Virus record (IMG/VR): IMGVR_UViG_3300022744_000022 | Span: 62,001 to 126,000 of that record | Length of the DNA: 64,000 nt | From: a virus | Strand: one strand, 5' to 3' | Part shown: piece after piece, positions 4,455 through 63,564 of the stretch | Numbering within the stretch: position 1 is the stretch's first letter | Layout of the letters: each line of letters begins with the position of its first letter | Notes under the pieces: model-generated | What the model was told of the DNA's origin: nothing | What the model saw: only the letters and a program-made list of their open reading frames with translations | Databases searched by the model: none | Translations under genes and position numbers: made by a program

Positions 4455-4463
4455 TGGTGTAGA
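4455..4463 (+). promoter_or_regulatory. Extended -10 promoter, leaderless type
   Basis: TGGTGTAGA, with the presumed -10 hexamer TGTAGA at 4458-4463 and only 7 bases to the ATG at 4471. Normal sigma-70 geometry would start the RNA at or one base before the ATG. No Shine-Dalgarno sequence is present. Confidence 0.6.
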
Positions 4464-4470
4464 CCGCCCC

Positions 4471-6276
4471 ATGGCGGCCCCCAAAGAAGATGTCGTAAGC
4501 AAGCACGAGAAGGCTTACGAGTTCCTAAAGCAGGTCCGGGCGAGCAAGACCGTTACGCTCAAGCCCACCGCTATGTTGCGGTCCGAGATCGTGGGGCTGG
4601 ACGGGACGAGTCGCCCGCTCAAGATCCGGTATTACCAGGTGCAGGCCATCATGCACCTCTTGACCATGAAGCGCATGGTCCTGGGGGACGCGACGGGCAC
4701 GGGTAAAACGCTCGTCCTGATCGCCTCGCTTTGCTACGCCTGGGACAAGGAGCCCACTAACAAGGGCGTGGTGGTGTGCCCCAAATCGGCGCTCCGGCAG
4801 TGGGAAGCTGAAATCCTGAAGTTCGCGGTGGGCATCAAGACCTTTTTGGTAGACGGCACACCGGCGGAACGCAAGGAAGTGTACGAGGCCTTTCAGGCCC
4901 ACCCCACGACCCCAGGGGGCGAGAAAGCGGTGCTCCTGATCGGATACGCCCCGTTGGTCCGGGACTGGAACCAGGGCTCTACTAGGCCCTTGCTGCCCAG
5001 CGGCCAGCCCAACATGAAGGTGCCCCAGACTCCCGGTTTGCTCTCGGGTATCATGGGGTCCATTCCGAACCTGACCGTTACGTTTGACGAGGCCACGGCG
5101 TTCAAGTCCACCAAGACCAAGACGTGGCAAGTCGCGAGCGAGCTGTCTGCGTACGCGAACCGTTGTTACGGCCTGACCGCGACCCTGTTGAAGAACAACC
5201 TGATCGAGGGCTTCGCGATTTTCAAGGTCATCTACCCGCAGGTCTTCACCACCGTCACGGCGTTCCACCGCGACTACTGCGTGACCAAAATGCAACCCGT
5301 GGGTGGGGGTCGGAAGATCCCCATCGTGGTTGGGTACCGGAATCTCGAAGCGTTCCGAGCCCGCATCGACATGTTCTTCTTGGGCCGGGCCAAACACCTG
5401 ATCTCGGACGAGTTGCCCAAGCTCATCACCAAAGAGGTTCAGGTTGACCTGTCCGAGGCCGAAGACGCCAAGTACGTTGAGGCGCTGACCGGGATCCTCC
5501 AGTTGGGGGACGGGCAGATCAAGGACTATGAGGAACACAAGAAGCTTGTGGCCCTCATTTACTGCCAGCAGACCGTCGATTCGCTTTCGTTGCTCAAGTA
5601 CAAGGAAGGCGACGCTCTTGAGCTAGGCCTCTACCACGACGAAATCGTCGAGGTGGCGGGCGTCGGCTCAAAAGAGCAGGCGTTGCTGGATCTTCTGGCC
5701 GAGGAATTCGATGACGAGAAGGTGATCGTGTACACACGCTTTGCCTCGCTTGTCCCGAGGCTCCAGGAGCTGTGCAAGAAGCAGGGGATTGAGTCGGTGG
5801 CGGTGACGGGCCAGGTGGTGGACACGAAGGCCAATCCGGCGCGTCAGAAGGCCCAGCAGGCCTTCCAGGACCTCAACTCGAAGGTCAGGGTCATCTTCAT
5901 CACGGATGCGGGCTCGGAGGCCATCAACCTTCAAGCCGCTTCGGCCATGATTTTCTACAACGCCCCGTGGAGCTGGGGCAACTACGTGCAGCTTTTGGGT
6001 CGCCCGATCAGGATCGGGTCACCTCACCAGCACGTGGTGGCGGTGCATCTTGTGGCCCAGCGCCCCAAAGCCAAGGGCAAAGAGCGGAAAACCATCGACC
6101 ACTACACGTTGGCGATCCTCCAGAAGAAGAAGGACTTGATCGACAAGGTGCTCGGGGAGTCCGCTGTAGGGGCCCTGGACTTCGATTCTGGCGAGAGTTT
6201 CGCCCATTTGCTCATGGACGAGCTACAGAAGTCGGTCAAGGGTCCGCGTGGTGTAGCTAAGCCCCGTGCCACCTGA
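4471..6276 (+). CDS. SNF2-type superfamily 2 DNA helicase/translocase
   Basis: 601 residues. Motif I is GDATGTGKT (72-80), followed by VVVCPKSAL (Ia), a Walker B variant DEAT near residue 205 instead of DEAH, LTAT (motif III), and in the second RecA lobe VIVYTRF (IV), GSEAINLQAA (V) and QLLGRPIRIG (VI). This order is typical of SNF2/RapA-like ATPases that move along duplex DNA; compact phage homologues remodel replication or recombination intermediates. It opens the replication operon behind a leaderless-type promoter. Confidence 0.88.
   Translation: MAAPKEDVVSKHEKAYEFLKQVRASKTVTLKPTAMLRSEIVGLDGTSRPLKIRYYQVQAIMHLLTMKRMVLGDATGTGKTLVLIASLCYAWDKEPTNKGVVVCPKSALRQWEAEILKFAVGIKTFLVDGTPAERKEVYEAFQAHPTTPGGEKAVLLIGYAPLVRDWNQGSTRPLLPSGQPNMKVPQTPGLLSGIMGSIPNLTVTFDEATAFKSTKTKTWQVASELSAYANRCYGLTATLLKNNLIEGFAIFKVIYPQVFTTVTAFHRDYCVTKMQPVGGGRKIPIVVGYRNLEAFRARIDMFFLGRAKHLISDELPKLITKEVQVDLSEAEDAKYVEALTGILQLGDGQIKDYEEHKKLVALIYCQQTVDSLSLLKYKEGDALELGLYHDEIVEVAGVGSKEQALLDLLAEEFDDEKVIVYTRFASLVPRLQELCKKQGIESVAVTGQVVDTKANPARQKAQQAFQDLNSKVRVIFITDAGSEAINLQAASAMIFYNAPWSWGNYVQLLGRPIRIGSPHQHVVAVHLVAQRPKAKGKERKTIDHYTLAILQKKKDLIDKVLGESAVGALDFDSGESFAHLLMDELQKSVKGPRGVAKPRAT
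6249..6257 (+). promoter_or_regulatory. Extended -10 promoter inside the end of the helicase gene
   Basis: TGGTGTAGC lies in the last codons of the upstream gene, with exactly 8 bases between the hexamer TGTAGC and the GTG start at 6266. Distance and sequence match the other copies, but the bases also encode Gly-Val-Ala, so chance is possible. Confidence 0.45.
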
Positions 6277-7165
6277 GGTCAACAGTTCAAACTGCCCGCT
6301 CTGTAAAGGGGCCCAATGGTTGTACGAGACCAAGGGCGAGGAAGTGATCCCGACCCGGTGTCGGTGCTTGGAGCGGAAGCTTCTGCACGACTTCCTGGGC
6401 CCGGAAATCTATCGCGCTCCCTGGGTCCCGTCGTCCCTGTACAACATCACGACCAACGAGGCCGGGGAGGTCGCGGGGGACCGGACAGAGGAAAACCTGT
6501 TCCTCAAGGGTTCGTGGGCCGTGGTTTGCCAGCACCTTCATTGGGCGCTCTCAGCTAAGCGTCTGTATAGCCCTAGGTTCAACTTCAAGATCGTGGGCAA
6601 CGACAAGCTCATGACAGTGTGGCTGGGTCTGGAGTCCTACACGCAACGGTCAACGGCGACTCGCAACGAGATCGAGACCAACAACAGCCTGGACGATCTT
6701 CTCGGCAACGCCGCTCTCGTGATCATCCGCCTCGATGGCCTTGAGCACCAGAACAAAGCGGCGGCCAACGTTCTGAAAGAGGCGCTCAAGGTCCGGGAAT
6801 TTGGGTACAAACCTACGTGGCTTGCCGAGTGCGGCCGTCGGTTTGGGCCCGGGCACCCGTCCTACAATGAAGCGGTTGGGGACTACATCGAAGAACGCTT
6901 CGACATTGTGGATCTCAGCGACGAAGATCCTAAGACCAGAGCGCAGCAAGCAGCCCTGGATGCAGCGGCCCAAGACATTATGGAGTCCGGTGAGGTCTCG
7001 ATGGGGGCCGATGTGGAAACGCCGCGTCTCGTGGACCCGCCAACTTCCAAGGAGCGCTTTTTTGCAGACCCCGAACCGGACCCTGAACCTGATTCTAGGC
7101 GTTACGTGCCAGGCGGTAAGGGTAAAAAACGCAACAAGGGCAAAGGCCAAGCGGAGCTTGAATAA
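6266..7165 (+). CDS. Zinc-finger protein, helicase-loader-like (inferred)
   Basis: 299 residues from GTG 6266, overlapping the helicase stop. The N-terminus carries a zinc-ribbon-like CPLC...CRC cluster (C10, C13, then CRC). The central part (ALVIIRLDGLEHQNKAA) looks like the Walker B strand of a DnaC/DnaA-type AAA fold, but no Walker A is visible. The C-terminal 60 residues are acidic then basic and probably disordered. Position directly before the replicative helicase is where phages often keep the loader; this is inference from context and a weak fold resemblance. Confidence 0.6.
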   Translation: MPPEVNSSNCPLCKGAQWLYETKGEEVIPTRCRCLERKLLHDFLGPEIYRAPWVPSSLYNITTNEAGEVAGDRTEENLFLKGSWAVVCQHLHWALSAKRLYSPRFNFKIVGNDKLMTVWLGLESYTQRSTATRNEIETNNSLDDLLGNAALVIIRLDGLEHQNKAAANVLKEALKVREFGYKPTWLAECGRRFGPGHPSYNEAVGDYIEERFDIVDLSDEDPKTRAQQAALDAAAQDIMESGEVSMGADVETPRLVDPPTSKERFFADPEPDPEPDSRRYVPGGKGKKRNKGKGQAELE

Positions 7166-9936
7166 TGCCTAAGCGTCTACTTCGTTCCATCATCGAGTTC
7201 GATTCTGAGATCTCCTCGGAGAACCTCGTCCGTAACTTCCAACGTCTGCGGAAGGCCGTGGACGTTGGGCAGCTCGATTGGGGTCGTCCCGAAGACGAGA
7301 AGCTCTACAAGTACGCTCTCGGCTTCTTCATCCAGCACTTCGAGCTGCCGTCGGCTCAGACCTGCCTCGACTACTTTCAGAGCGTCAACAACGTTGAAGT
7401 CATCGAGCGTCTCAAGGATGTTCAGGTCGAGAAGCCGTACGCCCGCACGAACTTCGTGCATCTCTTGCGGACCCTGCAAGAGGATCAGGCCCGCCTAAAG
7501 GCCGTCGCGTTGCTCAAAGAGACGCACGAGATCCTGGTCAAGGGGATTGAAGACAAGAAGTCTGGGGTGGTTCAGAAGGGCGTTGAAGACGCCATCCTGC
7601 ACTTCACCAAGCGTTCGCAAGAGATCAGGGTCAACGACCACAACGTTCAGATCCACGGTGACATCCGGCAGGACGCTGAGCGGATGAAAGAGGAATACGC
7701 GACCGCTGAGAACGACAAGGGTAAGGTCATTGGCGTCCTGTCGGGCATCAACGAGCTGGATGAGTCTTGCAAGGGTGCCAAAAAGGGCGAGCTGTGGATG
7801 CACGCTGCATTTCCGGGCGAACTCAAGTGCGTTGCCGGGGATGCTACCCTTTTCGATCACGCAACCGGCAGGCTACGGACAGTTCGTGAGCTATTCGAGT
7901 CCGGAGATCTGCCTATTGTGACTGCGCTTGACCGTGAAGGTGAAACCCACAAACTTGTGCAGGCCCAGACTTCGCACCTTGTTGAAAACGGGATCAGGGA
8001 TGTTTACGAGTTATCGTTATCGTCTGGTCGATCTCTTGGGGCGAGCAACAACCACAAAGTCTTCACCCCCAAGGGGTGGCAACAATTGGATGCGTTGAGT
8101 GTCGGTGATTGGGTGGCTGTGCCGTCCATCATGCGAGCCGAACCGCCCAGAGCCTTCACAGATAGTGAGGTCAAAGCTGTTGGTTACTTAATTGGGGATG
8201 GTGCAGTAGACTACTACATCACCCTCACGAACTCTTGCCAGGCTGTGCGAGAGGACTTCAAAGGCTGCCTTCGTGACTTTGGGCTGCAAGAAGGTGCGGC
8301 GGACTACATCACCCCTAACTTCACTGAGAACTTCCCGGAAGACAGGGCACCTTTCATCCGAGTTAGTCACAGCTCGGGGTTGGGGAGTGCCGCAGTCCCA
8401 ACCTCAAGCCTACGCACGCTTCTGGAAGAGCTGGGGGTTTGGGGTTGCACGTCTCGCACAAAGCAAGTCCCTCAAGCGTTCTTAGGGCTTCCGGATGATC
8501 AGGTGGCGCTCTTTCTAGGTGCCCTTTGGGCAACCGACGGATCGTGCCACACAGGGGATCATGAGCGTGAGGACCGGGAATCCTTGTGTTCGCGTAATGA
8601 CATTTCTTACGCCTCGGTTAGCCGGGCCTTGTGTCTTGGGGTTCAATCTCTACTTCTGCGCCTTGGCATCCAGTCTACGGTTACAACGGTACAGACAACC
8701 TATCGAGGGGAACCCTACACGTTTTATTGTGTTCGTGTGGTAACCAACCCCTCGAAGCGGGTATTCGTAGAGCGGATCCAGGTCGCGGGTAAGGAAGATC
8801 GGTTTGCCGAACTTCAGCGTAGATTGCCCTCGACAGACAACCGTCCTTTCCCAACTGACTTCATCCCGGAGGGTATGAAGATCCGCTGGGTTGGGGTGAA
8901 CGGGGAACGGTGGCGTTACGCCACTAACACCAAAAACCGCCCGTCGGCGCAAGCAGACACACTACGTCTTTTTGCCACTGATCCGACTGTAGCGAAAGCC
9001 TTGGACGGGGACTTGGCATGGGAACAGGTGGCGTCTGTGCGGCTCCGTGGGCAGGAGATGACCTACGACCTTTCGGTCCCAGGGCACCACTCGTTTGTGG
9101 TGAACGACATCGTGACCCATAACACGATGCTTGCCTCGAACTGGTGCTACAACGCGGTCACTCGGTTCAAGAAGAATGTCGTGTATGTCTCGTTCGAGAT
9201 GCCTCGCGATCAGATTCGCCGCAACATCTACACGATCCACACTTCCAACGCCCGCTTCCTCAACCAAGGGTACCAAGGACTCGACTACCGTAACATTCGT
9301 GACGGTAACCTGACGAAGGCCGAGAAGGAGTTCTACTTCGACGGGGTGATCCCGGACTTCACCACAAACCCCACGTACGGCACGTTCGAGGTCGTGACCC
9401 CGGACCGTGAGTGGACCATGGAGGATGTGCGGTCTGAGCTTGAGCTTCTCCACAAGGAATTCGAGGTTGGGCTCGTGGTGCTCGACCACGGTCAGTGGAT
9501 TGAGGCTAAGAAGACCAAGAAGAACAAGGACTACACGATTGAGTTGAATTCCGTAATCACGGACGCTAAGCGGTTGGCTCTGAACTTTGATCACAACTCG
9601 GGCGTTCCTGTCTTGATGTTGTTCCAGATCAACCGTACGGGCAAAACGGACGCGGACAAGAACGAGGGCGTCTACAAGATGAACGCCTTGACTTACGCGA
9701 ACAACGCGGAGAAGACCGCTGACGTGATCACCACCACGTACCTCAACACTGAGATGCGTGCCGCTGGGATGACCAAGTTCACGAACCTCAAGAATCGAGA
9801 CAACCCGCTCTTTGACCCGTTTTCAGCCAACGTGAACTTTGGGTGGCGTCGTATCTCTAGCGGCAAGCGCATGGAGCCCCAGGGTTTTTCGGTGGACCAC
9901 CATTCCTCGTATCTGGGCGCTACGGAACAGGTCTAA
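7165..9936 (+). CDS. dnaB: DnaB-like replicative helicase with in-frame intein
   Basis: 923 codons; after protein splicing the helicase would be about 491 residues. Residues 1-221 hold the N-terminal helical domain and the start of the RecA fold. The intein is 222-653. The C-extein continues TMLASNW, then VVYVSFEM (near 672, motif 1a-like), LVVLDHGQW (near 770, Walker B) and LFQINRTGK (near 820, the glutamine-sensor QxNR motif). The joined P-loop reads FPGELKT, with Leu where the second Gly of GxGKT is expected. It unwinds DNA at the fork and should work with the adjacent primase. It overlaps the upstream stop and the downstream start. Confidence 0.88.
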   Translation: MPKRLLRSIIEFDSEISSENLVRNFQRLRKAVDVGQLDWGRPEDEKLYKYALGFFIQHFELPSAQTCLDYFQSVNNVEVIERLKDVQVEKPYARTNFVHLLRTLQEDQARLKAVALLKETHEILVKGIEDKKSGVVQKGVEDAILHFTKRSQEIRVNDHNVQIHGDIRQDAERMKEEYATAENDKGKVIGVLSGINELDESCKGAKKGELWMHAAFPGELKCVAGDATLFDHATGRLRTVRELFESGDLPIVTALDREGETHKLVQAQTSHLVENGIRDVYELSLSSGRSLGASNNHKVFTPKGWQQLDALSVGDWVAVPSIMRAEPPRAFTDSEVKAVGYLIGDGAVDYYITLTNSCQAVREDFKGCLRDFGLQEGAADYITPNFTENFPEDRAPFIRVSHSSGLGSAAVPTSSLRTLLEELGVWGCTSRTKQVPQAFLGLPDDQVALFLGALWATDGSCHTGDHEREDRESLCSRNDISYASVSRALCLGVQSLLLRLGIQSTVTTVQTTYRGEPYTFYCVRVVTNPSKRVFVERIQVAGKEDRFAELQRRLPSTDNRPFPTDFIPEGMKIRWVGVNGERWRYATNTKNRPSAQADTLRLFATDPTVAKALDGDLAWEQVASVRLRGQEMTYDLSVPGHHSFVVNDIVTHNTMLASNWCYNAVTRFKKNVVYVSFEMPRDQIRRNIYTIHTSNARFLNQGYQGLDYRNIRDGNLTKAEKEFYFDGVIPDFTTNPTYGTFEVVTPDREWTMEDVRSELELLHKEFEVGLVVLDHGQWIEAKKTKKNKDYTIELNSVITDAKRLALNFDHNSGVPVLMLFQINRTGKTDADKNEGVYKMNALTYANNAEKTADVITTTYLNTEMRAAGMTKFTNLKNRDNPLFDPFSANVNFGWRRISSGKRMEPQGFSVDHHSSYLGATEQV
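7828..9123 (+). mobile_element. LAGLIDADG-type intein inside the helicase gene
   Basis: 432 residues, from Cys222 (start of block A, CVAGDATLFD) to Asn653 (block F/G, HHSFVVNDIVTHN), followed by Thr as the +1 extein nucleophile. Block B is visible as NNHKVFTPKGW. Two dodecapeptide-like motifs, GYLIGDG and FLGALWATDGS, mark a homing endonuclease domain. Codon use is visibly AT-richer than in the flanking extein DNA, consistent with later acquisition. Insertion lies between the Lys and Thr of the helicase P-loop, a common intein site because it is highly conserved. Confidence 0.92.
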
Positions 9937-10580: not shown

Positions 10581-10581
10581 G

Positions 10582-14606: not shown

Positions 14607-14614
14607 GGTGTAGC
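14607..14614 (+). promoter_or_regulatory. GGTGTAG element before the DUF2997 gene
   Basis: GGTGTAGC lies between the two genes, but here 18 bases and a good Shine-Dalgarno site (AGGAGG) separate it from the ATG at 14633. If it is a promoter, this transcript has a normal short leader. Confidence 0.4.
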
Positions 14615-15162: not shown

Positions 15163-15432
15163 GTGACTCGCGACGAGATAGCAGATTTGCTTTCGACTGA
15201 GAACCCATCGGCGCTTTTGGCCGATGGGTTTGAAGACGCCTTTTTAGGTGTGGCACGTCGTTGCGGTCAACCAGCACTTGCCGTGTACGACTACCGTTTG
15301 GGCGTCAAGGTGTTGATGCAACGTGACGCCATGTCCTACGAGGACGCCGTGGAGTGGATGGCGTTCAACGTCTTGGGCGCGTGGGTTGGGGAACACACTC
15401 CAATGTGGCTTGTGACACCTGAGACGGTGTAG
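15163..15432 (+). CDS. Small conserved phage protein, unknown
   Basis: 89 residues from GTG 15163, two bases after the DUF1257 stop. The core YDYRLGVKVLMQRDAMSY leading to VGEHTPMWL resembles a small protein I know from many phage and bacterial contigs; no function is assigned. It sits within the AAA+ module. Confidence 0.7.
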   Translation: MTRDEIADLLSTENPSALLADGFEDAFLGVARRCGQPALAVYDYRLGVKVLMQRDAMSYEDAVEWMAFNVLGAWVGEHTPMWLVTPETV

Positions 15433-18624: not shown

Positions 18625-18633
18625 TGGTGTATG
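18625..18633 (+). promoter_or_regulatory. Extended -10 promoter, leaderless type
   Basis: TGGTGTATG; the hexamer TGTATG ends 7 bases before ATG 18641. No Shine-Dalgarno sequence. Starts the nucleotide-metabolism operon. Confidence 0.6.
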
Positions 18634-24258: not shown

Positions 24259-24266
24259 GGTGTAGT
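24259..24266 (+). promoter_or_regulatory. GGTGTAG promoter before clpX
   Basis: GGTGTAGT with hexamer TGTAGT 11 bases before ATG 24278; the upstream TG is missing. Transcription would start a few bases before the ATG. No Shine-Dalgarno sequence. Confidence 0.5.
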
Positions 24267-29187: not shown

Positions 29188-29196
29188 TGGTGTAGT
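29188..29196 (+). promoter_or_regulatory. Extended -10 promoter, leaderless type
   Basis: TGGTGTAGT; the hexamer TGTAGT ends 8 bases before ATG 29205. A run of six T at 29160-29165 just upstream may end the previous transcript. Confidence 0.6.
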
Positions 29197-32527: not shown

Positions 32528-32536
32528 TGGTGTAGA
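32528..32536 (+). promoter_or_regulatory. Extended -10 promoter, leaderless type
   Basis: TGGTGTAGA; hexamer TGTAGA ends 8 bases before ATG 32545. No Shine-Dalgarno sequence. Confidence 0.6.
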
Positions 32537-35516: not shown

Positions 35517-35525
35517 TGGTGTACT
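35517..35525 (+). promoter_or_regulatory. Extended -10 promoter, leaderless type
   Basis: TGGTGTACT; hexamer TGTACT ends 7 bases before ATG 35533. Confidence 0.57.
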
Positions 35526-38016: not shown

Positions 38017-38025
38017 TGGTGTAGG
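38017..38025 (+). promoter_or_regulatory. Extended -10 promoter, leaderless type
   Basis: TGGTGTAGG; hexamer TGTAGG ends exactly 8 bases before ATG 38034, as in intact operons. This supports the broken ORF downstream being, or having been, a real gene. Confidence 0.55.
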
Positions 38026-38771: not shown

Positions 38772-38780
38772 TGGTGTAGC
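38772..38780 (+). promoter_or_regulatory. Extended -10 promoter, leaderless type
   Basis: TGGTGTAGC; hexamer TGTAGC ends 8 bases before ATG 38789. No Shine-Dalgarno sequence. Confidence 0.6.
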
Positions 38781-39830: not shown

Positions 39831-40796
39831 TTGGACCAAGCCCTGCACTCTGAGCGTGTAGCTCACCGCTTCCTGATCGCCTCGTTCAAGCCGGGCGACT
39901 ACATCTTGTTCGGCAAGTTCCGGAACAAGCGTGGGCGCGTGGTCCGCATCTTCAACGATGAGCGGGACATCCCGTACATCGAGATTCAGCCGGTGCCCAA
40001 GGGCCGCAAGAAGAACAGGATTTTTGGGCTCTACACGATCCGCCAGATGACCCCTGAGGCCATCCAGGAAGCGCAGCAGTTGGAGGCGGCGGAACGGGCT
40101 CTCGTCCACAAGGTGGCGGCCCGTTACCTGGAAGCCACTCAGATGCCGCCTGGGTGGGTTGAGCACAAAGGGTCTGCGGGGCGTTCCTTTTGGATCAGCC
40201 CCGACGGTAAGGCGGAGATCAGCGACACGGGTCGTAAAGGCAGCCCGCAGCGCTTCCAGGTCTTCTTTCTTCAGGACGGGAAACGGCACGAGGACATCGG
40301 CTGGCCGTCCCTCAAGAAGGCGCTCCAGTACCTGAGTGGCGAAGTGGGGTTGAGTGCCCACCCAATGGCCAAGCGGGAGGGCGGCAACCTGGAGAACTTC
40401 CTGGACGGCTTCGCACGACGGCACTCTAGGCTTGGGCGGCTTCTCCCTAAGGTCGTGGAGAAAGCTCAAGGATCCAGCTCGGGGCACGGAGAAGCTCGCC
40501 AACACGGTAACGAGATCTGGCTGTTCCCGAAGTTCTGGGACCTCGATCTCAAGACCCAAGATTTCGTACTGGCTCACGAGATCGGGCACTATGCGTTGAG
40601 TCGGAAACCCGGCACCTGGTTGATGGACCTCGGGAAAGAGCTGGGCGTTGACGTGTGGGACACGGGCAGCCTACCCTTCGGACAGTTCAATCAAGACGAG
40701 GCGTTCGCGGATTCCTTTGCTAGTTACTTCTTAGAGCCGGGTGAACTGCGGAGACGCTACCCTGCTTGGGTTACTTTCGTTGAGGCCGTCCTGTGA
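39831..40796 (+). CDS. Zincin-type protein with two RVAxRF/Y signatures
   Basis: 321 residues from TTG 39831, supported by GTGGAG five bases upstream. N-terminal SERVAHRFLIASF begins a beta-barrel-like domain; LVHKVAARYLEATQ (near 95-108) marks a boundary before a second domain. The C-terminal zincin has HEIGH in FVLAHEIGHYALS and a following DEAFADSFASYF helix with the likely third ligand. Target unknown. It overlaps the giant gene downstream. Confidence 0.72.
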   Translation: MDQALHSERVAHRFLIASFKPGDYILFGKFRNKRGRVVRIFNDERDIPYIEIQPVPKGRKKNRIFGLYTIRQMTPEAIQEAQQLEAAERALVHKVAARYLEATQMPPGWVEHKGSAGRSFWISPDGKAEISDTGRKGSPQRFQVFFLQDGKRHEDIGWPSLKKALQYLSGEVGLSAHPMAKREGGNLENFLDGFARRHSRLGRLLPKVVEKAQGSSSGHGEARQHGNEIWLFPKFWDLDLKTQDFVLAHEIGHYALSRKPGTWLMDLGKELGVDVWDTGSLPFGQFNQDEAFADSFASYFLEPGELRRRYPAWVTFVEAVL

Positions 40797-43700
40797 ACAC
40801 CATGCAAACACGATTGGTCGAACGCTTCACACGGGTAGGGGCCTACTCCGAGGACACCCTAGAGATTGTTGCGGCCGGTCTTGCTCTACTGATCGCGCAG
40901 AACTACATCGTCACCAACCCCTTCTTCGATGAGAAGGAGATCCGAAACTACCTGCTGTTGCGCAAGCAGTTTCACGGGGACTTCGTTCAAGCGTGCCTGG
41001 ACTTGGCAGACGCCTTTGAAGAGGGGCAGTTCGGTCAGGCGGTTCTACCCGCTGTCCCAGCCTTGCGGGCCATCGGGCATCTCGGGGTCAAGCAGGATCA
41101 GCAAGCAATCCGCCAACTCGCAAGAGCGTTCCGAGGGCTCAAGCACCTCAAGTACCGGGATGTCGAAAACCCGAAGCTCATGCGTCTCATCATGATGGCG
41201 CGTAAACTTGATGTCACCACCGGGGCAGATGGTAGGGACATCAAGGACTTCTTGGAGAATCTTGTTAAGATCCAGGCGGTGCCGACAAGACTCCGGACCC
41301 TTCTTCGCAAAGTCATCAAGTTGCCCGTCCCGGGCAGGACGCTCACCGAGAATGCCGATCCAGGCGCTTGGTTCGAGATGCCCGAGGACAAGAAACAAAG
41401 CCTTCGCGAGCTGACCGAGAAGGTTGAGCAAGAGCAGCTTGGGATCTGGGAGAAGTACAAAGACGCCAGTGACGATGAGCGGATGGCGGCTTACCAGAGT
41501 GCTGCCCGTCGCCTACAGAAGATTCAGAGCATCGCAGGCGTGAACCTGGGTGTTATCAAGCGTGACGATGAGGTCCCGCTTGACACGCTTTTGAAGAAGG
41601 AAACGCGACTCGAATCCGACGGACCGACGGAGTACACACGACTCAAAATTGAGGACTACCTCAAAAAGACAGGGGCGTACCGCTTCCAGCGCAAGGAAGG
41701 TGATCCGCTACCTCGTGAGGTCAGCAAGCTGCTCACATTGTTGCGCAAGGCCAAGACCTTCTCGACAATGCAGCGCGTGATCAAGGATGCTGTGGATCGT
41801 CAGGTGTTGGGCAGGGCGTCCACCGAAGATGTCGATCACATCATCACGCAAGCGAACAAGAACCGGGCGTTGAAAGAGGGGAAACCTCTCACGCCTCTAC
41901 AGTTCGAGCCTAAGAGCGTAGAGCAGTTTCAGGTGGACCACGATACGGGCCCCGTGGCGTTCGACCCTGAGTACACGGATGACGAAAAGAAGCAGTTGCT
42001 GGGTCGTGTCTCCCGTGCTTTGAGTGATCTAGAGAGTGTCTACGGAAAAGGCTTCTGTGGTAAGCATGCCAAGAAGCTCGCGTTCCGTTTCAACAAGGGG
42101 TACAGCGGGACCGCTTCCGCTCACTACTTCGTTTGGGATGACCGTCGGACGTGGCAACCCAGGGTAACGTTTGGTCCGGAGTTCGAGGGCCTCTTGGCTC
42201 ACGAACTCTCGCACTACCTGGAAGACTTGCTGGCGTACCAGATTCAGAAGCAGGACGAACCAGAGCGCATCGAGGCCCTCCTGGGTAAAGGGATCGAGGG
42301 AGGACCAGGCGTCCTGTTCTCCAACACGGGGGTGTCCCTGAGGCTCTTCGCTGAGGGTGGTGCCCTGGAGAGTTACCGAGGACACCTAAGTAAGTCGGTC
42401 CCGGAGTTCGTTGAGTTCATCGACGCCGTGCTTGCAACCCCGGACTACAAGCGCTGGGAGGACAAGCTTGGATCAGCGTACGACACCGCACTGCCCATGG
42501 CCATCAAGGCGCTGACAGGGATGAGCTACTACGACTTGCCCAAAGAGCACCCGTACTACGGTTTGATCGACAAGGCGCAATACCGCTCGGACCTGCCCCC
42601 GGAAGTGAACGACGAGACTCAGAAGCAGTTCAAGAACCTGATGGATGGGGATGGGCGCAAGCTCAACTACTACAACAGCTCCACCGAGGTCTGGGCCCGG
42701 ATGTGCGAGCAGTACGTGTACAACCGGCTGATCGATGCGGGGATCTCGAACCCCTGGCTCACACAGATGAACTACGAGGAAGATGTCTTCATGAACGAGA
42801 AGACCTTCGATACGCAGTTACGTCCGATTATGGACAAGATCTTCGCCAAGCTGAAAGGCCGCAAACTCATTGCCAGTGTGCCCATGAGCCCCTTGCGTGA
42901 ACGTCTGGCAGACCGCTTCTTGCTCATCAATCGGGTAGCTGCTCGTTACAAAGAGAAGAAGCAGGTAAAGTCGGAGGACGGCGGCAAGACTACCGTCTAC
43001 GTCTACTCTGAGCGGCAGATCGCCAATCGGAACAAGGCGAAGGCTGAGCGAGTCCAAAAGCTCAGCGGCGCTATCAAGAAGCTGAGGGCCAAGGTCAAGA
43101 AGGACTTGGGGTCCAAGGATCCTGAGACGGCTCGTACAGCACTCGCGGTGGCCCTCATGGATCATACCTATGAGCGAGTTGGCAACGAGAGTTCTGCCAA
43201 GGACGGGCACTTCGGGGTCACGGGGTGGCAGCGTAAGCACGTGAGCTTCGGCAAGGACGGGGCGTTCATCAAGTACGTGGGCAAGTCCGGGGTCAAGCAC
43301 GAGAAGAAGGTCACGGACTCGGCGATCCGTAGTGCGTTGAAGGCTGCTTACGACTCCCTGGAAGGTGATGACACGGGCGTTCTGGAGTGGGACGGGGGCA
43401 AGGTCACGGCCGAGAAGGTGAACCAGTACCTGGAGCCCTTTGACGTTACGGCCAAGGACATCCGTGGCTTCCACGCCAACGACCAGATGCGGGTCAACCT
43501 CAAGAGCGTGCGCTCGAAGGGCGGCTCGCTTCCTGAGGACAAGAAGAAGCGTGAGGACAAGCTCAAGAAGGAGTTCGCGGAAGCTCTTGAAGCGACCGCA
43601 GAGTGCGTGGGGCACGAGGCCGCTACACTCAAGAATCAGTACCTTGTCCCCGGCCTAGAGGACTCGTTTCTCAAGGATGGGACGGTCATCGACAAGCTCG

Positions 43701-43906
43701 GGAGCCAACACGAAGACGAGATCCCCGGCGGCTTGGCGGACAAGAAAAAGCCAAGCGACTTTGACCCCAAGCAACTCGCCAAGGGAATCAAGGTCGAGCT
43801 GGAGCACACCGATGATCGAAATCTCGCGCAAGAGATCTCGATGGATCACTTGACCGAAGATCCGGATTACTACAGCAAGCTTGAGAAGATGGAGTCGGAA
43901 AAATGA
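40793..43906 (+). CDS. Giant fusion: zincin, type IB topoisomerase and DUF5661
   Basis: 1037 residues from GTG 40793 (ATG 40802 possible). Residues 1-460 are helical; HELSH (470-474) marks a zincin domain reaching to about 700. The signature RLADRFLLINRVAARY (704-719) leads into a topoisomerase IB catalytic domain with R795 (YERVGNE), K831 (GKSG), R891 (DIRGF), H941 and Tyr950 as nucleophile; H-to-Y spacing of nine matches the vaccinia enzyme. Residues 998-1037 (KVELEHTDDRNLA...DHLTEDPDYY) match DUF5661. The topoisomerase part would relax supercoils; the protease-like part may process this or other virion proteins. Confidence 0.85.
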   Translation: MNTMQTRLVERFTRVGAYSEDTLEIVAAGLALLIAQNYIVTNPFFDEKEIRNYLLLRKQFHGDFVQACLDLADAFEEGQFGQAVLPAVPALRAIGHLGVKQDQQAIRQLARAFRGLKHLKYRDVENPKLMRLIMMARKLDVTTGADGRDIKDFLENLVKIQAVPTRLRTLLRKVIKLPVPGRTLTENADPGAWFEMPEDKKQSLRELTEKVEQEQLGIWEKYKDASDDERMAAYQSAARRLQKIQSIAGVNLGVIKRDDEVPLDTLLKKETRLESDGPTEYTRLKIEDYLKKTGAYRFQRKEGDPLPREVSKLLTLLRKAKTFSTMQRVIKDAVDRQVLGRASTEDVDHIITQANKNRALKEGKPLTPLQFEPKSVEQFQVDHDTGPVAFDPEYTDDEKKQLLGRVSRALSDLESVYGKGFCGKHAKKLAFRFNKGYSGTASAHYFVWDDRRTWQPRVTFGPEFEGLLAHELSHYLEDLLAYQIQKQDEPERIEALLGKGIEGGPGVLFSNTGVSLRLFAEGGALESYRGHLSKSVPEFVEFIDAVLATPDYKRWEDKLGSAYDTALPMAIKALTGMSYYDLPKEHPYYGLIDKAQYRSDLPPEVNDETQKQFKNLMDGDGRKLNYYNSSTEVWARMCEQYVYNRLIDAGISNPWLTQMNYEEDVFMNEKTFDTQLRPIMDKIFAKLKGRKLIASVPMSPLRERLADRFLLINRVAARYKEKKQVKSEDGGKTTVYVYSERQIANRNKAKAERVQKLSGAIKKLRAKVKKDLGSKDPETARTALAVALMDHTYERVGNESSAKDGHFGVTGWQRKHVSFGKDGAFIKYVGKSGVKHEKKVTDSAIRSALKAAYDSLEGDDTGVLEWDGGKVTAEKVNQYLEPFDVTAKDIRGFHANDQMRVNLKSVRSKGGSLPEDKKKREDKLKKEFAEALEATAECVGHEAATLKNQYLVPGLEDSFLKDGTVIDKLGSQHEDEIPGGLADKKKPSDFDPKQLAKGIKVELEHTDDRNLAQEISMDHLTEDPDYYSKLEKMESEK

Positions 43907-46490: not shown

Positions 46491-46806
46491 GGAGGATCCT
46501 TTCCGCTCGGTTGGGTTCTCGTTTGCGGAGTTCGGCCTCGACTCGGTTGTAGAACGCGGCTCGATTCAGCATTCGGTATCGCACGGTGGAAACCATGCCG
46601 CCGCCCATCCGGAGGGCACTGAACGTAATGGTCAGGAACGAAACCATGGCCAGCGTGCTCAGGCGTTCGACCTGGAGCTTGGCGAGGATCAGGTCCGCAT
46701 CGGGGGCGAGTTCCCCAAGCTCGGGGCTCATCCGTTCGTAGATGGCATCGACCAACGAGTCGTCGGACCCTTGCCACGTGTAGATCGTTTCGAGCCACGA
46801 CTCCAT
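46477..46806 (-). CDS. Unknown protein, first gene of the rnhB-dam operon
   Basis: 109 residues. Central hydrophobic helix (LSTLAMVSFLTITFSALRMGGG) could be buried or membrane-associated; basic C-terminus. Overlaps rnhB by 14 bases. No family recognised. Confidence 0.6.
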   Translation of the reverse strand: MESWLETIYTWQGSDDSLVDAIYERMSPELGELAPDADLILAKLQVERLSTLAMVSFLTITFSALRMGGGMVSTVRYRMLNRAAFYNRVEAELRKREPNRAERILHGLR

Positions 46807-46814: not shown

Positions 46815-46823
46815 ATTACACCA
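46815..46823 (-). promoter_or_regulatory. Extended -10 promoter, leaderless type (reverse)
   Basis: Reverse-strand TGGTGTAAT; hexamer TGTAAT ends 8 bases before the ATG at 46806. Same geometry as the forward copies. Confidence 0.6.
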
Positions 46824-52855: not shown

Positions 52856-52883
52856 TTTCTACACTACTACACCGAAACTCACC
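52856..52883 (-). promoter_or_regulatory. Reverse promoter before the RlaP operon
   Basis: Reverse strand: GGTGAG (52878-52883), 16 bases, TAGAAA (52856-52861), then 7 bases to ATG 52848. The spacer contains GGTGTAGTAGTGTAG, so an alternative -10 (TGTAGA, 52858-52863) lies 9 bases before the ATG. No Shine-Dalgarno site: leaderless type. Confidence 0.5.
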
Positions 52884-53508: not shown

Positions 53509-53536
53509 ACTACAACCAGGGTCCGGGAAACTCTAG
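53509..53536 (-). promoter_or_regulatory. CTAGAG-N16-TGTAGT promoter, leaderless
   Basis: Reverse strand: CTAGAG (53531-53536), exactly 16 bases, TGTAGT (53509-53514), then 6 bases to ATG 53502. Confidence 0.65.
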
Positions 53537-54447: not shown

Positions 54448-54475
54448 ACAACACCTGAGCCCGGAGAAACTCTAG
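54448..54475 (-). promoter_or_regulatory. CTAGAG-N16-TGTTGT promoter, leaderless
   Basis: Reverse strand: CTAGAG (54470-54475), exactly 16 bases, TGTTGT (54448-54453), then 6 bases to ATG 54441. The last ACCGGC before the ATG is identical to that before 53502. Confidence 0.65.
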
Positions 54476-56907: not shown

Positions 56908-56915
56908 GTTACACC
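56908..56915 (-). promoter_or_regulatory. GGTGTAAC element (reverse)
   Basis: Reverse strand CGGTGTAAC, hexamer TGTAAC 10 bases before ATG 56897. A weaker copy; GGAG also lies seven to ten bases upstream of the ATG, so normal initiation is possible. Confidence 0.4.
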
Positions 56916-56937
56916 GAAAGTCAGCGGTCAGCGTCCA

Positions 56938-57387: not shown

Positions 57388-57391
57388 AAGG

Positions 57392-58063: not shown

Positions 58064-58353
58064 TGGGGGCCTCCGATGATGCTTTGCATGATGTGGTTGA
58101 AGCCCGCGATACAGCGAGCCCGCGTGGCCAACACCTTCTCAACCAGCGTGGGGCTCTCGGTCCGGGCGATCTCCATGAGCCGCTTACCCGCGAGGTAGCT
58201 GATGATCGAGGGGTGTTGCGCCCCGGTGTGGGGCAGGGCCGCCCGGACAAGAGTCTCGACCACCAGCTCGTCCGCCTGGGCTTGCCAATAGCTCAGGGGC
58301 TTGCCGTTGAAGTTCTTGCGCTTGCGAATGATCTCGTCAAATTGGTGGGTCAT
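58060..58353 (-). CDS. Unknown protein
   Basis: 97 residues from ATG 58353; the open frame extends further upstream but runs into the terminator and dissimilar codons. Helical, Ala/Arg-rich. No family recognised. Confidence 0.57.
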   Translation of the reverse strand: MTHQFDEIIRKRKNFNGKPLSYWQAQADELVVETLVRAALPHTGAQHPSIISYLAGKRLMEIARTESPTLVEKVLATRARCIAGFNHIMQSIIGGPQ

Positions 58354-58362
58354 GGGGATCCC

Positions 58363-58399
58363 AAAACGGGGGAGGCCGGAAGGGCCGACCCTCCCCGTT
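58363..58399 (-). terminator. Terminator after the DUF932 gene
   Basis: On the reverse strand AACGGGGAGG pairs with CCTCCCCCGTT across a 14-base loop and is followed by TTTT, ten bases after the stop at 58409. Confidence 0.65.
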
Positions 58400-58408
58400 G
58401 GTTGAGGT

Positions 58409-59131: not shown

Positions 59132-59175
59132 GTGTTGCTCCGTTTCGAGGGGGTGTTGTTTCGAGGTCCCTAACT

Positions 59176-59203
59176 ACTACACCGACGAGAACGAAAACTC
59201 TAG
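59176..59203 (-). promoter_or_regulatory. CTAGAG-N16-TGTAGT promoter for DUF932 gene
   Basis: Reverse strand: CTAGAG (59198-59203), exactly 16 bases, TGTAGT (59176-59181). Here a leader of about 38 bases with GGAG precedes ATG 59131, so this is the same promoter type with a conventional leader. Confidence 0.65.
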
Positions 59204-59286
59204 ACCTAATTGCAAAAAAGAGCGTCGCGATTACGTGGGCCCAAACCAAACCCGCAGAAACTCAGGCAAATTGCCGGAGAAAAAGT

Positions 59287-59295
59287 TGGTGTAGG
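59287..59295 (+). promoter_or_regulatory. Extended -10 promoter, leaderless type
   Basis: TGGTGTAGG; hexamer TGTAGG ends 7 bases before ATG 59303. Divergent from the DUF932 promoter. Confidence 0.6.
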
Positions 59296-59302
59296 GGGTT
59301 GC

Positions 59303-60469
59303 ATGATCCCCATCTATGCCCGTGAGCCCCTGCCGACCAAGATGGTCAAGTCGATTTTTCTGGCCGGTCCGACCCCTCGAAGCCCTGAGGTTGAGAGCTG
59401 GCGTCGGGACGCCCTAGGGATTCTTGAGTCCCTAGGGTACGATGGACACGTTTTCATCCCCGAGCCCGCCGACGGGGTTTGGGCCTCGGATTACGACGGC
59501 CAGATCGAATGGGAGGAACAGGCGCTCAATCAAGCGGACCTGATCGTGTTCTGGCTGCCTCGGAATCTAGAAACGCTTCCGGGATTCACAACGAACGATG
59601 AGTGGGGCGTGTGGAAGGCTTCTGGGAAGGTCCTATTTGGGGCTCCCGAGGGGGCGGCCAAGGTCAGGTACCAGCAACACTACGCGGAGAAGCACAGGGT
59701 TCCGCAACACGACACCCTGCGGGGGCTGCTGCGGGCCGCAGTGACCCGCCTGGGTCCAGGGCGTCTCCGACAAGGGGGCGAGGTCAAGGTGCCGCTCTAC
59801 GTCTGGGAACAGCCGTCTTTTCAGAGCTGGTACAGCTACCAGCAGCACGCGGGTAACGTGCTCAAGGCCGCAGAGGTTTTGTGGACCTTCCGGGTTGGTC
59901 CGAAGCTCGACAAGATGTTCTGCTGGGTGCTCAGGGTGTCCGTGTACGTCACGTCCGAGGACAGAGTTAAAAAGGCTGAATTCGTATTAGGCCGCCCCGA
60001 TACCTCATCGGTGATCTTGTGGCACCGAGCCCCGACGCTCGCAGAGACCCGAGTCGTCCTGATTAAGGAGTTTAGGAGTCCTGCAAGAACTCTTGACGGC
60101 TTCCTGCGTGAAGCCCCCGGTGGCTCTGCAAAACTTGGTACTGTGTCTACGGATCCTATGCAGACGGCACTGTCCGAACTCAAGGAAGAAACAGGGTTCG
60201 CAATTGCTCGTGAACGTCTTCGCGATCATTCCTTGCGACAAGTTTTTGGCACACTGACCTCAGTCGGGTCTTTCGTATATTCGGCGGAGATTACGGACGA
60301 GGAACTTGGCTTCTTCGAGGAACAAAAGGGTCAAGTTCACGGAATCGAAGAAGACTCTGAGCGTACCTTTGTCGAAGTCCACAAGGTTGGGGACTTACTG
60401 GCACAACCGTTGACAGACTGGGTAACGCTCGGGATGATCTTTGTCGCGTTAGCTGATGCGATGCGGTAG
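59303..60469 (+). CDS. Deoxyribosyltransferase-like / Nudix fusion
   Basis: 388 residues. Residues 15-135 (SIFLAGPTPRSP...WEEQALNQADLIVFWLPRN) match the nucleoside 2-deoxyribosyltransferase-like fold. Residues about 230-385 form a Nudix domain with PGGSAKL...ALSELKEETGF; the usual REUxEExG reads SELKEETG, so the first Arg is replaced. From about base 59955 the codons become clearly AT-richer, suggesting the Nudix half came from another source. Likely cleaves or transfers bases on nucleotides, possibly ADP-ribose-type; not proven. Confidence 0.8.
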   Translation: MIPIYAREPLPTKMVKSIFLAGPTPRSPEVESWRRDALGILESLGYDGHVFIPEPADGVWASDYDGQIEWEEQALNQADLIVFWLPRNLETLPGFTTNDEWGVWKASGKVLFGAPEGAAKVRYQQHYAEKHRVPQHDTLRGLLRAAVTRLGPGRLRQGGEVKVPLYVWEQPSFQSWYSYQQHAGNVLKAAEVLWTFRVGPKLDKMFCWVLRVSVYVTSEDRVKKAEFVLGRPDTSSVILWHRAPTLAETRVVLIKEFRSPARTLDGFLREAPGGSAKLGTVSTDPMQTALSELKEETGFAIARERLRDHSLRQVFGTLTSVGSFVYSAEITDEELGFFEEQKGQVHGIEEDSERTFVEVHKVGDLLAQPLTDWVTLGMIFVALADAMR

Positions 60470-60518
60470 TGACCCTACATCCGACCTACCCAATACTCGC
60501 TTTGTGTTTTTGGCAGAT

Positions 60519-61268
60519 ATGACCAAAACGACGACTTGTGCTTGTGGTAGCCCTGCGAAGGTTGGCCGCACCCTCTGTAGGTCTTGTACGAATGCACGAA
60601 GACGGGAACGGTACGCTACTGACGATGAGTTTCGTAAGGATCTGATCAATAGGGCCAAAGAAAACTACGACATTGAGCACAAGAAAAAGCTGTACCATCA
60701 CCACAGACGAAAAGCGTTTGAAGTTCTTGGTGGGTACCTTTGTAAGAAGTGCGGCTTTGACGATCCCAGAGCCTTGCAGATTGACCATTTGGGGGATGAT
60801 GGGTACCTAAAGCGCAAAGGTGGGGAGTTAGGTCAAACGCTATACCGTAGAGTCCTTAAGATGGGTGGGGTGGGTTTTCAAGTGTTGTGCGCTAACTGTA
60901 ACTGGATTAAGAAAGCTGAGTCTGAGGGGCGCACCATCGAATACTACTGGGAAGAAGCGTCAGAAGGTTTTCGCCCTCGCCAACCAAATCAGCAGTGTGT
61001 CGTTAGCCCAGAAGACGCCTTCGCCGCGTTCGCTACAGGGGAGTCTGCCAGCTCTGTAAGGTCAAGACTTCATGTGTCCGCTGTTACTTTACGCAACTGG
61101 TGGGTTGGCAAGTTTGGGGAGGAGGCCGTGAGGCTCCGTGCTCGAACAATTCAGGCTAAGGCAGTGACTCAGACGGGGCACCAAAACAGGGGTAGAGTCG
61201 TAACCCCAGAGGTCCGGGCCAGAATTTCAGCTACCCAAACGGGGAAACCTAAGCCACGACGCTCGTAA
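60519..61268 (+). mobile_element. HNH homing endonuclease with NUMOD3-like repeat
   Basis: 249 residues from ATG 60519. Zinc-like CACGSPAKVGRTLCRSC at the N-terminus, HNH-type CKKCGFDDPRALQIDHLG ... VLCANCNW in the middle, a helix-turn-helix (SASSVRSRLHVSAVTLRNW), and TPEVRARISATQTGKP at the end, which is the NUMOD3 DNA-binding repeat. AT-rich relative to its neighbours. Inserted between the Nudix fusion and dNMP kinase. Confidence 0.82.
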
Positions 61269-61269
61269 G

Positions 61270-61278
61270 TGGTGTAGC
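61270..61278 (+). promoter_or_regulatory. Extended -10 promoter, leaderless type
   Basis: TGGTGTAGC; hexamer TGTAGC ends 8 bases before ATG 61287. Confidence 0.6.
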
Positions 61279-61286
61279 CGCCAGGT

Positions 61287-62003
61287 ATGTTGCTCGGAAT
61301 TTCTGGTTTCGCGGGTTCAGGAAAAGACGCGGCGGCGAACTTCCTGGTTGAGGATCACGGCTTCACCAAGGTTGCGCTCGCAGACCCCTTGAAGCGCATA
61401 GCCCGCGACGTGTATGCCTTCACAGACGAACAGCTCTGGGGGCCGAGTCAGTTCCGCAACACTCCCGACAAACGGTATCCGAGGCCCTGCAAGACTTGCC
61501 GTGGGCAAGGGGACCGCGTAGATGCCGATGGGGCGTTCGAGCCCTGCCTGGGGTGCCACGGGGCTCGGGTCACGCACCTGACGCCTCGTGAGGCTCTCCA
61601 GAAGCTCGGGACCGAGTGGGGCCGCGAGTGCTACCCAGACACGTGGGTTGACCTTTGCATCCGAACCTCAGCCCACTTGCTGGACAACATCTACGCCCGT
61701 TACGATCAACAACGCGGGGCGTACCAAGCGATGGTGGATACCCAGAGCGCCCTCAACTACCGGATCAAGGGTGTCGCAGTCCCAGATGTACGGTTCCTCA
61801 ACGAGATCCGAGCCATCAAACAAGCGGGCGGTAAGGTGATCAGGATCTCGCGTCCTGGGGCTGGGCTCGACGGTGCGGGTGCTCTCCATGTGTCCGAGAC
61901 AGAGCAGGCCGGGTTACCCGACTCGATGTTCGATGCTGTGATCCAGAACACGGGGACCCTCGAAGACCTGAGGGCTGCGGTTCAAGCGTTCCTCAGCGAT
62001 TAA
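61287..62003 (+). CDS. Deoxynucleoside monophosphate kinase-like with zinc insertion
   Basis: 238 residues. P-loop GFAGSGKD (7-14), LADPLKRIAR and the late DVRFLNE and VIRISRPG segments fit phage dNMP kinases. Between P-loop and lid sits an extra CKTCRGQG...CLGCHG segment (about 68-92), a DnaJ-type CxxCxGxG zinc element unusual for this fold. The enzyme would charge dNMPs, including modified ones, for replication. Confidence 0.83.
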   Translation: MLLGISGFAGSGKDAAANFLVEDHGFTKVALADPLKRIARDVYAFTDEQLWGPSQFRNTPDKRYPRPCKTCRGQGDRVDADGAFEPCLGCHGARVTHLTPREALQKLGTEWGRECYPDTWVDLCIRTSAHLLDNIYARYDQQRGAYQAMVDTQSALNYRIKGVAVPDVRFLNEIRAIKQAGGKVIRISRPGAGLDGAGALHVSETEQAGLPDSMFDAVIQNTGTLEDLRAAVQAFLSD

Positions 62004-62007
62004 AAAG

Positions 62008-62041
62008 CAAGAGGCTGTGGGACGGATCCCACAGCCTCTTG
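62008..62041. terminator. Bidirectional terminator hairpin
   Basis: A perfect 15-bp stem (CAAGAGGCTGTGGGA and complement) with a CGGA loop between convergent genes ending at 62003 and 62061. Confidence 0.78.
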
Positions 62042-62060
62042 GCTCAACCGTTGAGACGTT

Positions 62061-62399
62061 TCAATCGTCGCTGGGCTCGTCCTCGTCATCACCGGCGTCA
62101 TCGGAATCGTCGTCCTTCTTGGACTTCTTTTTCCGAGACTTCGGCGCTTCTTTGACGACCGGCGGAGCAACGGCGACCGGGGCAGCCTTCGCTTCGCCCG
62201 AACGCACACGCAGCACCTTGTCCACGAGAGCGATCAGGTGATCCGTCGAGTGCTTGGCAGCACCCTCCGGAATAGCAACGGGGCCTGCTTCTGCTTCCAG
62301 CTCAGCACAATACCCTGCCGCATTGGCGATCTGTCTGCCGTACTGCTTGGCAGTCTGGCATCGGGCCCGGAACTCAGTCAACGCTTGTGGTGTCATCAT
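62061..62399 (-). CDS. Small protein with acidic/basic tail
   Basis: 112 residues from the double ATG at 62399, overlapping the end of the lipoprotein gene by 26 bases (GAGGCGG just upstream). A helical core (30-75) is followed by KSRKKKSKKDDDSDD and an all-acidic end, typical of a disordered tail. No family recognised. Confidence 0.6.
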   Translation of the reverse strand: MMTPQALTEFRARCQTAKQYGRQIANAAGYCAELEAEAGPVAIPEGAAKHSTDHLIALVDKVLRVRSGEAKAAPVAVAPPVVKEAPKSRKKKSKKDDDSDDAGDDEDEPSDD

Positions 62400-63252
62400 C
62401 CGCCTCTTGCTTCTGTTGGGGGATAAGAGAATTCTCGCCCAAGAGCTGCGGGATCCTGTGACGGCGCTGAGCCCTACCCCCTGCAATTGCAGCAGAGAGC
62501 AACTTGCTCTTGGTGACCTTCGTCTCGTCAATGGGAAGACACGCCCCTGCGTTAGCGAGATCCCGGGGATCCGCCCAGTATGTGTTTCGCATAGGGCCGC
62601 CCACGTTCAGAGGACAGAAGTTACGAGCCTCACCACGCCAGTAATCCATGTCCCCGCCCCACTGGATCGGTTTGCCTGGAAGGGTCTGAGGGACAACACC
62701 ACTAAAGTAGAGTTCGCGAGCTTGACTGCGAAAGGCCGTCCACCCCTTGACCGTGGATGCCCAGTTGCCTGTGCAACCCTCTGGCGTCGGCCTCTTAGTT
62801 GTCGGGTCTTTACCCGTACACTCTACCCAACCCTTCTCAGGCGGCTCTGTGCCTTGCATAGGCAGGTAGCTGACCCAGATTTGGCGGGTGTCCGTGAAGG
62901 GTTCACGTCGCGTAATCTTCGAGGACTGCGCGTACATGGCATTGAGCAGAGACTTGTCGCTCCGCATCTCTCGCATGTTCTCCAACGTCTGGAGCAACTT
63001 CTGGGCTTCTTCAATACTGAATCCGCCCTCGCTCACGCAGATCTTGGTGAACCACTCACTCTCAAGGCGGCTTGTCCGAATAGCCTTCCTAGGTTCGGGA
63101 ACCTTGGGCTGCGCTTCGGCTACCACTACCGTGCTAATGGTCTGAACGACCGCTTGAGGGGCAGCCGTCAAATTAGGTACGCTATCTTGCGCCACCGAAG
63201 TTGAGCAGGCCACCATCGCGAAAGAGATGCTTACGAGCTTCAAACTTTTCAT
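62374..63252 (-). CDS. Lipoprotein-like exported protein
   Basis: 292 residues. N-terminus MKSLKLVSISFAMVACSTS fits a lipoprotein signal (AMVA-C lipobox, cleavage before C16). The mature part contains ICVSEGGFSIEEAQKLL and later WGGDMDYWRGEA with several Trp and Cys. A cell-wall hydrolase or lysis role is possible from export alone; no catalytic motif is certain. Confidence 0.62.
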   Translation of the reverse strand: MKSLKLVSISFAMVACSTSVAQDSVPNLTAAPQAVVQTISTVVVAEAQPKVPEPRKAIRTSRLESEWFTKICVSEGGFSIEEAQKLLQTLENMREMRSDKSLLNAMYAQSSKITRREPFTDTRQIWVSYLPMQGTEPPEKGWVECTGKDPTTKRPTPEGCTGNWASTVKGWTAFRSQARELYFSGVVPQTLPGKPIQWGGDMDYWRGEARNFCPLNVGGPMRNTYWADPRDLANAGACLPIDETKVTKSKLLSAAIAGGRAQRRHRIPQLLGENSLIPQQKQEADDDTTSVD

Positions 63253-63478
63253 TTCCTGTCTCCTAGTTAGATCGCATCACTCTGAGTGCATGAGCCGTGG
63301 GCATGCCTTTCTTCGGACTCAGATCAGCCACGCTGGTTGGCGTTGTGATTAACGCCTGGACCTGTTGACTACGTTTCTGAGTTCATTGGCTCAAGTTAGA
63401 GATCTTTACACTCATCTGGATGCTGTGAAGTTGACCTTGTAACACTGTGACAAGAGAACTATCGTTTAGGGGTTGAAG

Positions 63479-63495
63479 TTGGCACAGCATTTGCA
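63479..63495 (+). promoter_or_regulatory. Sigma-54-like -24/-12 promoter
   Basis: TTGGCACAGCATTTGCA matches the -24 TTGGCAC and -12 TTGCA boxes at the canonical five-base-plus spacing (GG to GC of 10 bases). It would start RNA near 63507, about 65 bases before ATG 63572. Confidence 0.5.
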
Positions 63496-63555
63496 AGACA
63501 GCACTTAGAAGTGCGCCCACTCTATTACACCAGCCGCACAGGTTTTTGTTGGGCC

Positions 63556-63564
63556 CGGTGTATG
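63556..63564 (+). promoter_or_regulatory. Extended -10-like promoter, leaderless type
   Basis: CGGTGTATG; hexamer TGTATG ends 7 bases before ATG 63572. The TG extension is CG here. Confidence 0.5.

Follow-up and report, generated by a model that had tools for sequence, protein, structure and literature searches.

A short element, TGGTGTA, recurs immediately before start codons in this viral DNA, and it raises the question of whether it is a promoter that places the 5' end of the RNA on the first codon. The stretch analysed, called the window, is 64,000 nucleotides long and represents bases 62001-126000 of an IMG/VR virus record of 208,486 bases (G000). A preliminary description of the window had proposed that TGGTGTA and its variants form sigma-70 promoters producing leaderless mRNAs for most operons of the phage. 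Relatives of G000 were retrieved with DNA polymerase and AAA ATPase queries. The gene order of G000 was colinear with that of a 323-kb relative, G005. Because the left end of G000 corresponds to about 112.6 kb of G005 and the following late block of G005 is missing, G000 appears to be an incomplete fragment. The clade's baseplate, tail and terminase genes are those of a myovirus-like jumbo phage. The nearest named records were LR745208 (485 kb) and, distantly, Acidobacteriota phage Tunturi_5.

We determined whether the element exceeds what base composition would give. TGGTGTA occurred 14 times in the window, whereas 100 dinucleotide shuffles averaged 3.43 copies and never exceeded 8. This is an over-representation of about four times, and the expected enrichment over shuffled sequence was thus confirmed. 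Genes were called by a simple coding-score caller without a ribosome-binding or promoter model. In an unbiased count of positional upstream 6-mers, GGTGTA was first or among the leading words in G000 and five relatives, and it was the top word in G000, G001, G003, and G005. In a test that needed no gene caller, distances were taken from every GGTGTA to ATGs that open 30 codons or more. Five of the six records had distance peaks at 9 and 10 nt; the 111-kb G004 had too few sites for a peak. When pooled, 68 sites lay at 9 nt and 60 at 10 nt against a background of 4.6 per position. Exact GGTGTA was found 8-11 nt before called starts 75 times (0.9 expected), and the 18 single-mismatch forms totalled 23 (about 13 expected). 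Single-mismatch variants of GGTGTA are nearly unused. A chance or compositional artefact is refuted by the shuffle, positional-word, spacing and clade counts, and we give it practically no weight.

The sites of the window were then located. Elements designated class A lie 9-11 nt before the start. On the forward strand, TGGTGTAG at 4455..4462 lies 9 nt before ATG 4471 of an SNF2-like helicase of 601 aa, whose G003 orthologue also carries a class A element. The site at 6249..6256 lies 10 nt before GTG 6266, an uncertain start that overlaps the end of gene 4471-6276. TGGTGTAT at 18625..18632 and TGGTGTAC at 35517..35524 both precede their ATGs (18641 and 35533) by 9 nt, as does 59287..59294 (ATG 59303), which is kept in G001. 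The spacing is 10 nt at 29188..29195 (ATG 29205, a DUF1848 protein; kept in G001, G002, and G005), at 32528..32535 (ATG 32545) and 38772..38779 (ATG 38789), both kept in G001, G003, and G005, and at 38017..38024, where ATG 38034 opens an ORF of 22 codons only. It is also 10 nt at 61270..61277 before ATG 61287 of a dNMP kinase-like gene, which is of the leaderless type in G000, G001, and G005; the G003 copy is leadered with AGGAGG. On the reverse strand, TGGTGTAA at 46816..46823 lies 10 nt before ATG 46806 and is kept in G001. These ten forward sites and the reverse site had been placed correctly in the preliminary description, and the 7-8 nt it gave between TGTAGN and the start equals 9-10 nt after GGTGTA.

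Six further sites had been grouped there as variants. One is a full member, CGGTGTAT at 63557..63563 (+), 9 nt before ATG 63572. Three had longer spacings: CGGTGTAG at 15426..15432 (+), a class A site 11 nt before ATG 15443 of an AAA ATPase; GGTGTA at 56910..56915 (-), 12 nt before ATG 56897; and GGTGTA at 24259..24264 (+), 13 nt before ATG 24278 of a ClpX-like gene, a spacing also found in G001 and G004. The remaining two (53502 and 54441) belong to a separate two-box class described below. TGGTGTA was also found away from gene starts, at 1965, 33855, and 63526 (-). Two other features of the window were a DnaB-like helicase with an intein bearing a LAGLIDADG domain (7165-9936) and a 1037-aa protein with a eukaryotic-type topoisomerase I core, LPD1 and DUF5661 (40793-43906).

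Orthologue comparisons showed that the motif was kept at 8-12 nt in 120 of 207 cases and lay farther upstream in 20, with variable spacing and flanks. In the AAA ATPase gene, GGTGTA lies at 11, 10, 9, 9, and 9 nt in G000 and four relatives, in surroundings that are unrelated. Only 25 of the 42 start-adjacent sites in G000 coincided with starts from the coding-score caller, so starts of this kind readily escape annotation.

A logo of 136 sites, in which the hexamer is invariant by construction, showed a pyrimidine before and a purine after it (YGGTGTAR) and nothing else upstream. No information indicative of a -35 box was found at -42 to -3 relative to GGTGTA in these sites; class B sites, described below, differ. 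TANNNT was likewise not found in the 136 sites, and the -7 position had no T preference. C at -1 of the ATG was enriched, being seen in 76 of 136 sites versus 241 of 652 (p=7e-5). Such enrichment is likewise reported for mapped transcription starts in M. tuberculosis (PMC3898074).

These features bear on the sigma-70 reading of the preliminary description, which did not hold: since a -35 box and TANNNT are missing and single-mismatch forms are nearly unused, recognition by ordinary sigma-70 is unlikely. In a broader form of this explanation, host sigma-70/sigma-A would recognize GGTGTA as a -10 box of degenerate or extended type. A phage protein might first release sigma region 4, in the manner of gp39 of Thermus phage P23-45. 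The geometry suits a -10 box for which no -35 is needed, the extended -10 class includes the middle and late promoters of P23-45 (PMC7403470), and leaderless genes are found in many bacterial phyla (PMC3160421). However, the lack of T preference at -7 and of TANNNT, the near-absence of permitted mismatches in GGTGTA, and a motif unchanged from GC 42 to 65% all speak against host sigma-A, and we consider this explanation rather improbable, though the strongest of the rivals.

We examined whether the element could act on the ribosome instead. No 4-base Shine-Dalgarno (SD) core was found at -19..-5 of the ten forward genes of the window, and none was visible at 46806, as had been described. A strong SD was found in none of 86 start-adjacent GGTGTA genes (0/86). 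The 4-base core occurred in 10 of these 86, about the random rate, although part of this deficit arises because the motif itself occupies some of the SD window. Where GGTGTA lay 16-64 nt upstream, the core was present in 28 of 47 genes (p=1e-8 against the start-adjacent genes), and this contrast is not due to window occupancy alone. The earlier statement that genes lacking the element do have SD sites holds only in part: the 4-base core occurred in 323 of 753 of them (43%), against about 15-17% of random 15-mers.

The window contains natural examples of the leadered arrangement. GGTGTA at 14607..14612 (+) lies 20 nt before ATG 14633 and is followed by AGGAGG, and this natural control, with a GGAGG- or AGGAGG-type SD, is also present in G001 and G005. 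Another leadered copy lies at 52868..52873 (-), 19 nt before ATG 52848. The flanking pyrimidine was present in 51 of 60 intergenic off-start copies versus 54 of 99 intragenic ones (p=7e-5). GGTGTA is therefore predicted to be a promoter element rather than a ribosome site, because no strong SD lies near the start-adjacent genes, yet SD sites follow the distant copies.

An mRNA-level translation signal, that is, an unusual ribosome or protein binding site, would also explain the fixed distance to the start codon, and pairing of the anti-SD with GGUG is possible. However, GGUG lies about 11-12 nt from the ATG, beyond normal SD pairing, the distant copies precede normal SDs and keep their flanks, and 13 of the 35 divergent operon heads of G000 carry GGTGTA. 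A signal of this kind is very improbable. Together, the fixed ATG distance, the lack of SD sites, the C at -1, the orthologues and the SDs after distant copies give comparative support to the proposal of leaderless initiation from a recurrent element. On these sequence patterns, GGTGTA is very probably a promoter giving leaderless or near-leaderless RNA.

A second class, class B, has two boxes. In G000 and G001, TAGAGTTT stands at -33..-26 and GTGTAGTACC ends 3 nt before the ATG. In the window, 53509..53535 (-) has TAGAGTTT at -33..-26 and TGTAGT at -12..-7 of ATG 53502, and 54448..54474 (-) has TAGAGTTT and TGTTGT before ATG 54441. A leadered promoter with TAGAGTTT and GGTGTAGTA lies at 59178..59202 (-), 46 nt before ATG 59131. 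The equivalent in G006 (about 20 copies) is (C/T)TGAAC, about 15 bases, and CGTAGTA about 5 nt before the ATG, and in G020 (5 copies) it is TTGATC, about 16 bases, and TGTAGGAC. If RNA begins at the A of the ATG, the class B boxes are located at about -33 and -12, near a normal promoter layout.

The distribution of the motif was investigated within genomes and across the clade. Of 93 operon heads in G000, 17 were of the leaderless type and 6 were leadered, which contradicts the claim that most operons use leaderless initiation. The 62-kb structural part had almost no leaderless-type heads; in G000 and G005 the motif is scarce in the structural module and gathers in regions of replication, nucleotide and accessory genes. 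G000 also encodes a PurA-like synthetase (L013:18493-19821), a nicotinamide phosphoribosyltransferase (L013:14724-16166) and an RtcB-like ligase (L015:9556-10974). A 2-aminoadenine genome was considered and rejected: the PurA-like gene (phrog_1211), which retains GDEGKG, was present in just one of six records, G000, and is therefore not tied to the GGTGTA motif. A single tRNA with a CUA anticodon, a possible amber suppressor, was found in G000 (L013:9011-9083) and G003 (L038:5239-5313), and TAG still serves as a stop in called genes despite it. Two adjacent 20-kb pieces of G005 (L064, L065) gave about 42 tRNA calls and a tmRNA with the tag ANYNGFAQAA.

Start-adjacent GGTGTA was enriched in 24 jumbo-phage contigs of GC 42-65%, of which the 18 beyond the first six have GC 0.42-0.64. 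In 80-kb pieces from eight of these 18, clear peaks at 9-11 nt were seen in G006, G009, G011, G013, G018, G019, and G020, and a weaker one in G021. Outgroup contigs, whose AAA gene has at most 36% identity, had no GGTGTA peak and used ordinary SD sites. The GGTGTA-ATG peak was doubtful in LR745208 and absent from Mycobacteriophage Gizmo (first 50 kb) and from two 50-kb pieces of Tunturi_5. Tunturi_5 (PP885688; L174, L175) has a strong motif of its own, GGGTATTA, often just before the ATG and usually with ATAATC or a similar box some 20-25 nt upstream.

This distribution bears on recognition by an alternative (ECF-type) sigma of the host. Such a sigma fits a short stringent element that departs from the sigma-70 consensus. 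However, one sigma specificity would have to persist among the hosts of phages that differ widely in GC, and the genome scan found no host relative; we regard this explanation as improbable.

We next considered readers encoded by the phage. G000 yielded no match to an RNA polymerase and no strong match to a sigma. In profile searches, PF00562 was absent from G000, PF00623 was absent from six records with its positive control detected, and PF00940 gave no match, its positive control also going undetected. No RNAP-like DxDGD motif was found. With no match in these searches, a phage-encoded RNA polymerase was set aside as a probable reader.

Larger members of the clade encode two sigma-like proteins, and both genes are absent from G000, the apparent fragment. 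The first, a tandem-HTH protein (L062:1113-1757, reverse strand), matches sigma region 4 (Pfam Sigma70_r4, 6e-13) and was present in 12 of 12 contigs of at least 231 kb and in none of the outgroup contigs. Its structure model superposed on single SigF/SigR region-4 domains to about 1 A (probability 1.0), although E exceeded 0.01. The gene sits among structural genes, whereas the GGTGTA promoters are on non-structural genes. Adjoining it, at L062:1795-3591 (-), is a NusG-like KOW/antiterminator domain fused to a 5'-3' exonuclease.

The second protein, of roughly 300-470 aa (in G005, L065:15887-16843, reverse strand), has a weak match to sigma region 2 and the same place in most members tested; it was found in 10 contigs of at least 252 kb and in none of the outgroup. 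Its alignment points to an insertion separating regions 2.2 and 2.3. After excision of the insert, with borders chosen by the analyst, Sigma70_r2 was the best match for six of six cores. Five of the six covered almost all 71 positions of the model, at E-values (3.5e-5 to 1.3e-3) that fall slightly short of the Pfam cut-off. For comparison, phi32_gp36, a phage sigma proven by experiment, scored 0.002 in this search. A profile comparison of the candidate with phi32_gp36 gave no significant similarity, and a fold search placed sigma chains first at E about 0.75, which is not significant. Tunturi_5 gp3 matched no Pfam family and resembled neither candidate convincingly. The only link between these proteins and the motif is co-occurrence within one clade, which does not prove recognition.

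We propose a promoter class specific to the phage in which recognition depends on YGGTGTAR alone, in the position of the -10 box. Its reader would probably be the host RNA polymerase with a sigma supplied by the phage, the insertion-bearing region-2-like protein, perhaps assisted by the separate region-4-like protein. RNA would start about 10-11 nt past the final A of YGGTGTAR, in most cases at the A of the start codon, giving a leaderless mRNA whose translation would be independent of SD sites; in a minority, the RNA start would lie upstream and an SD would follow. These promoters would drive replication, nucleotide and accessory genes and not the structural module. Overall, a single-element leaderless promoter read by a phage sigma is likely to be the best explanation. 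For the narrower claim that a phage sigma reads GGTGTA, the chances appear even. Still more tentative is a divided sigma system, with an insertion-split region 2 and a separate region-4-like protein, in which YGGTGTAR and the two-box TTGAAC/TAGAGTTT...(T/C)GTAGTA would both put the start on the first codon and make a whole temporal gene class leaderless. The element offers a sequence-only rule by which promoters, the starts of transcription and correct start codons can be located across a large jumbo-phage clade. The two candidate sigma proteins are now directly testable. The results also suggest that a whole class of viral genes can be given over to SD-independent translation.

Several known systems share parts of this arrangement. 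The phage RNA polymerase promoters of AR9 and phiKZ are also short stringent elements near the transcription start; they differ in that no RNAP beta or beta' match was found here, and AR9 UTRs are 26-491 nt long. T4 late promoters consist of a -10 element only. The T4 element, TATAAATA, is on late genes, whereas GGTGTA is on non-structural genes, and TATAAATA was not among the enriched upstream words. The T4 late system combines a phage sigma, gp55, with a separate phage co-factor, gp33 (PMC3014915), as in the pair proposed for this clade. Leaderless promoters of Actinobacteria and Deinococcus-Thermus have TANNNT about 10-12 nt before the start and no SD (PMC3160421, PMC12340547, PMC3898074). 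They resemble GGTGTA in the position of a -10-like element and the lack of an SD, but TANNNT is the host sigma-A consensus, and here an almost invariant GGTGTA takes its place. The promoters of Thermus phage P23-45 likewise need no -35 (PMC7403470); they differ in using host sigma-A with phage gp39, and their sequence is not alike. In phiEco32, the gp36 promoters have one element, tAATGTAtA, with the start 6-8 bp downstream, and their reader is a phage sigma that lacks region 4 (PMC8948821). These middle/late promoters differ in consensus, number six, and are not described as leaderless in PMC8948821; the sequence similarity of gp36 to the sigma candidates of the clade is not significant. Both systems have a single highly conserved TGTA-containing element and no -35, and by this analogy the phiEco32 gp36 promoters appear to be the closest functional analogue of the GGTGTA class.
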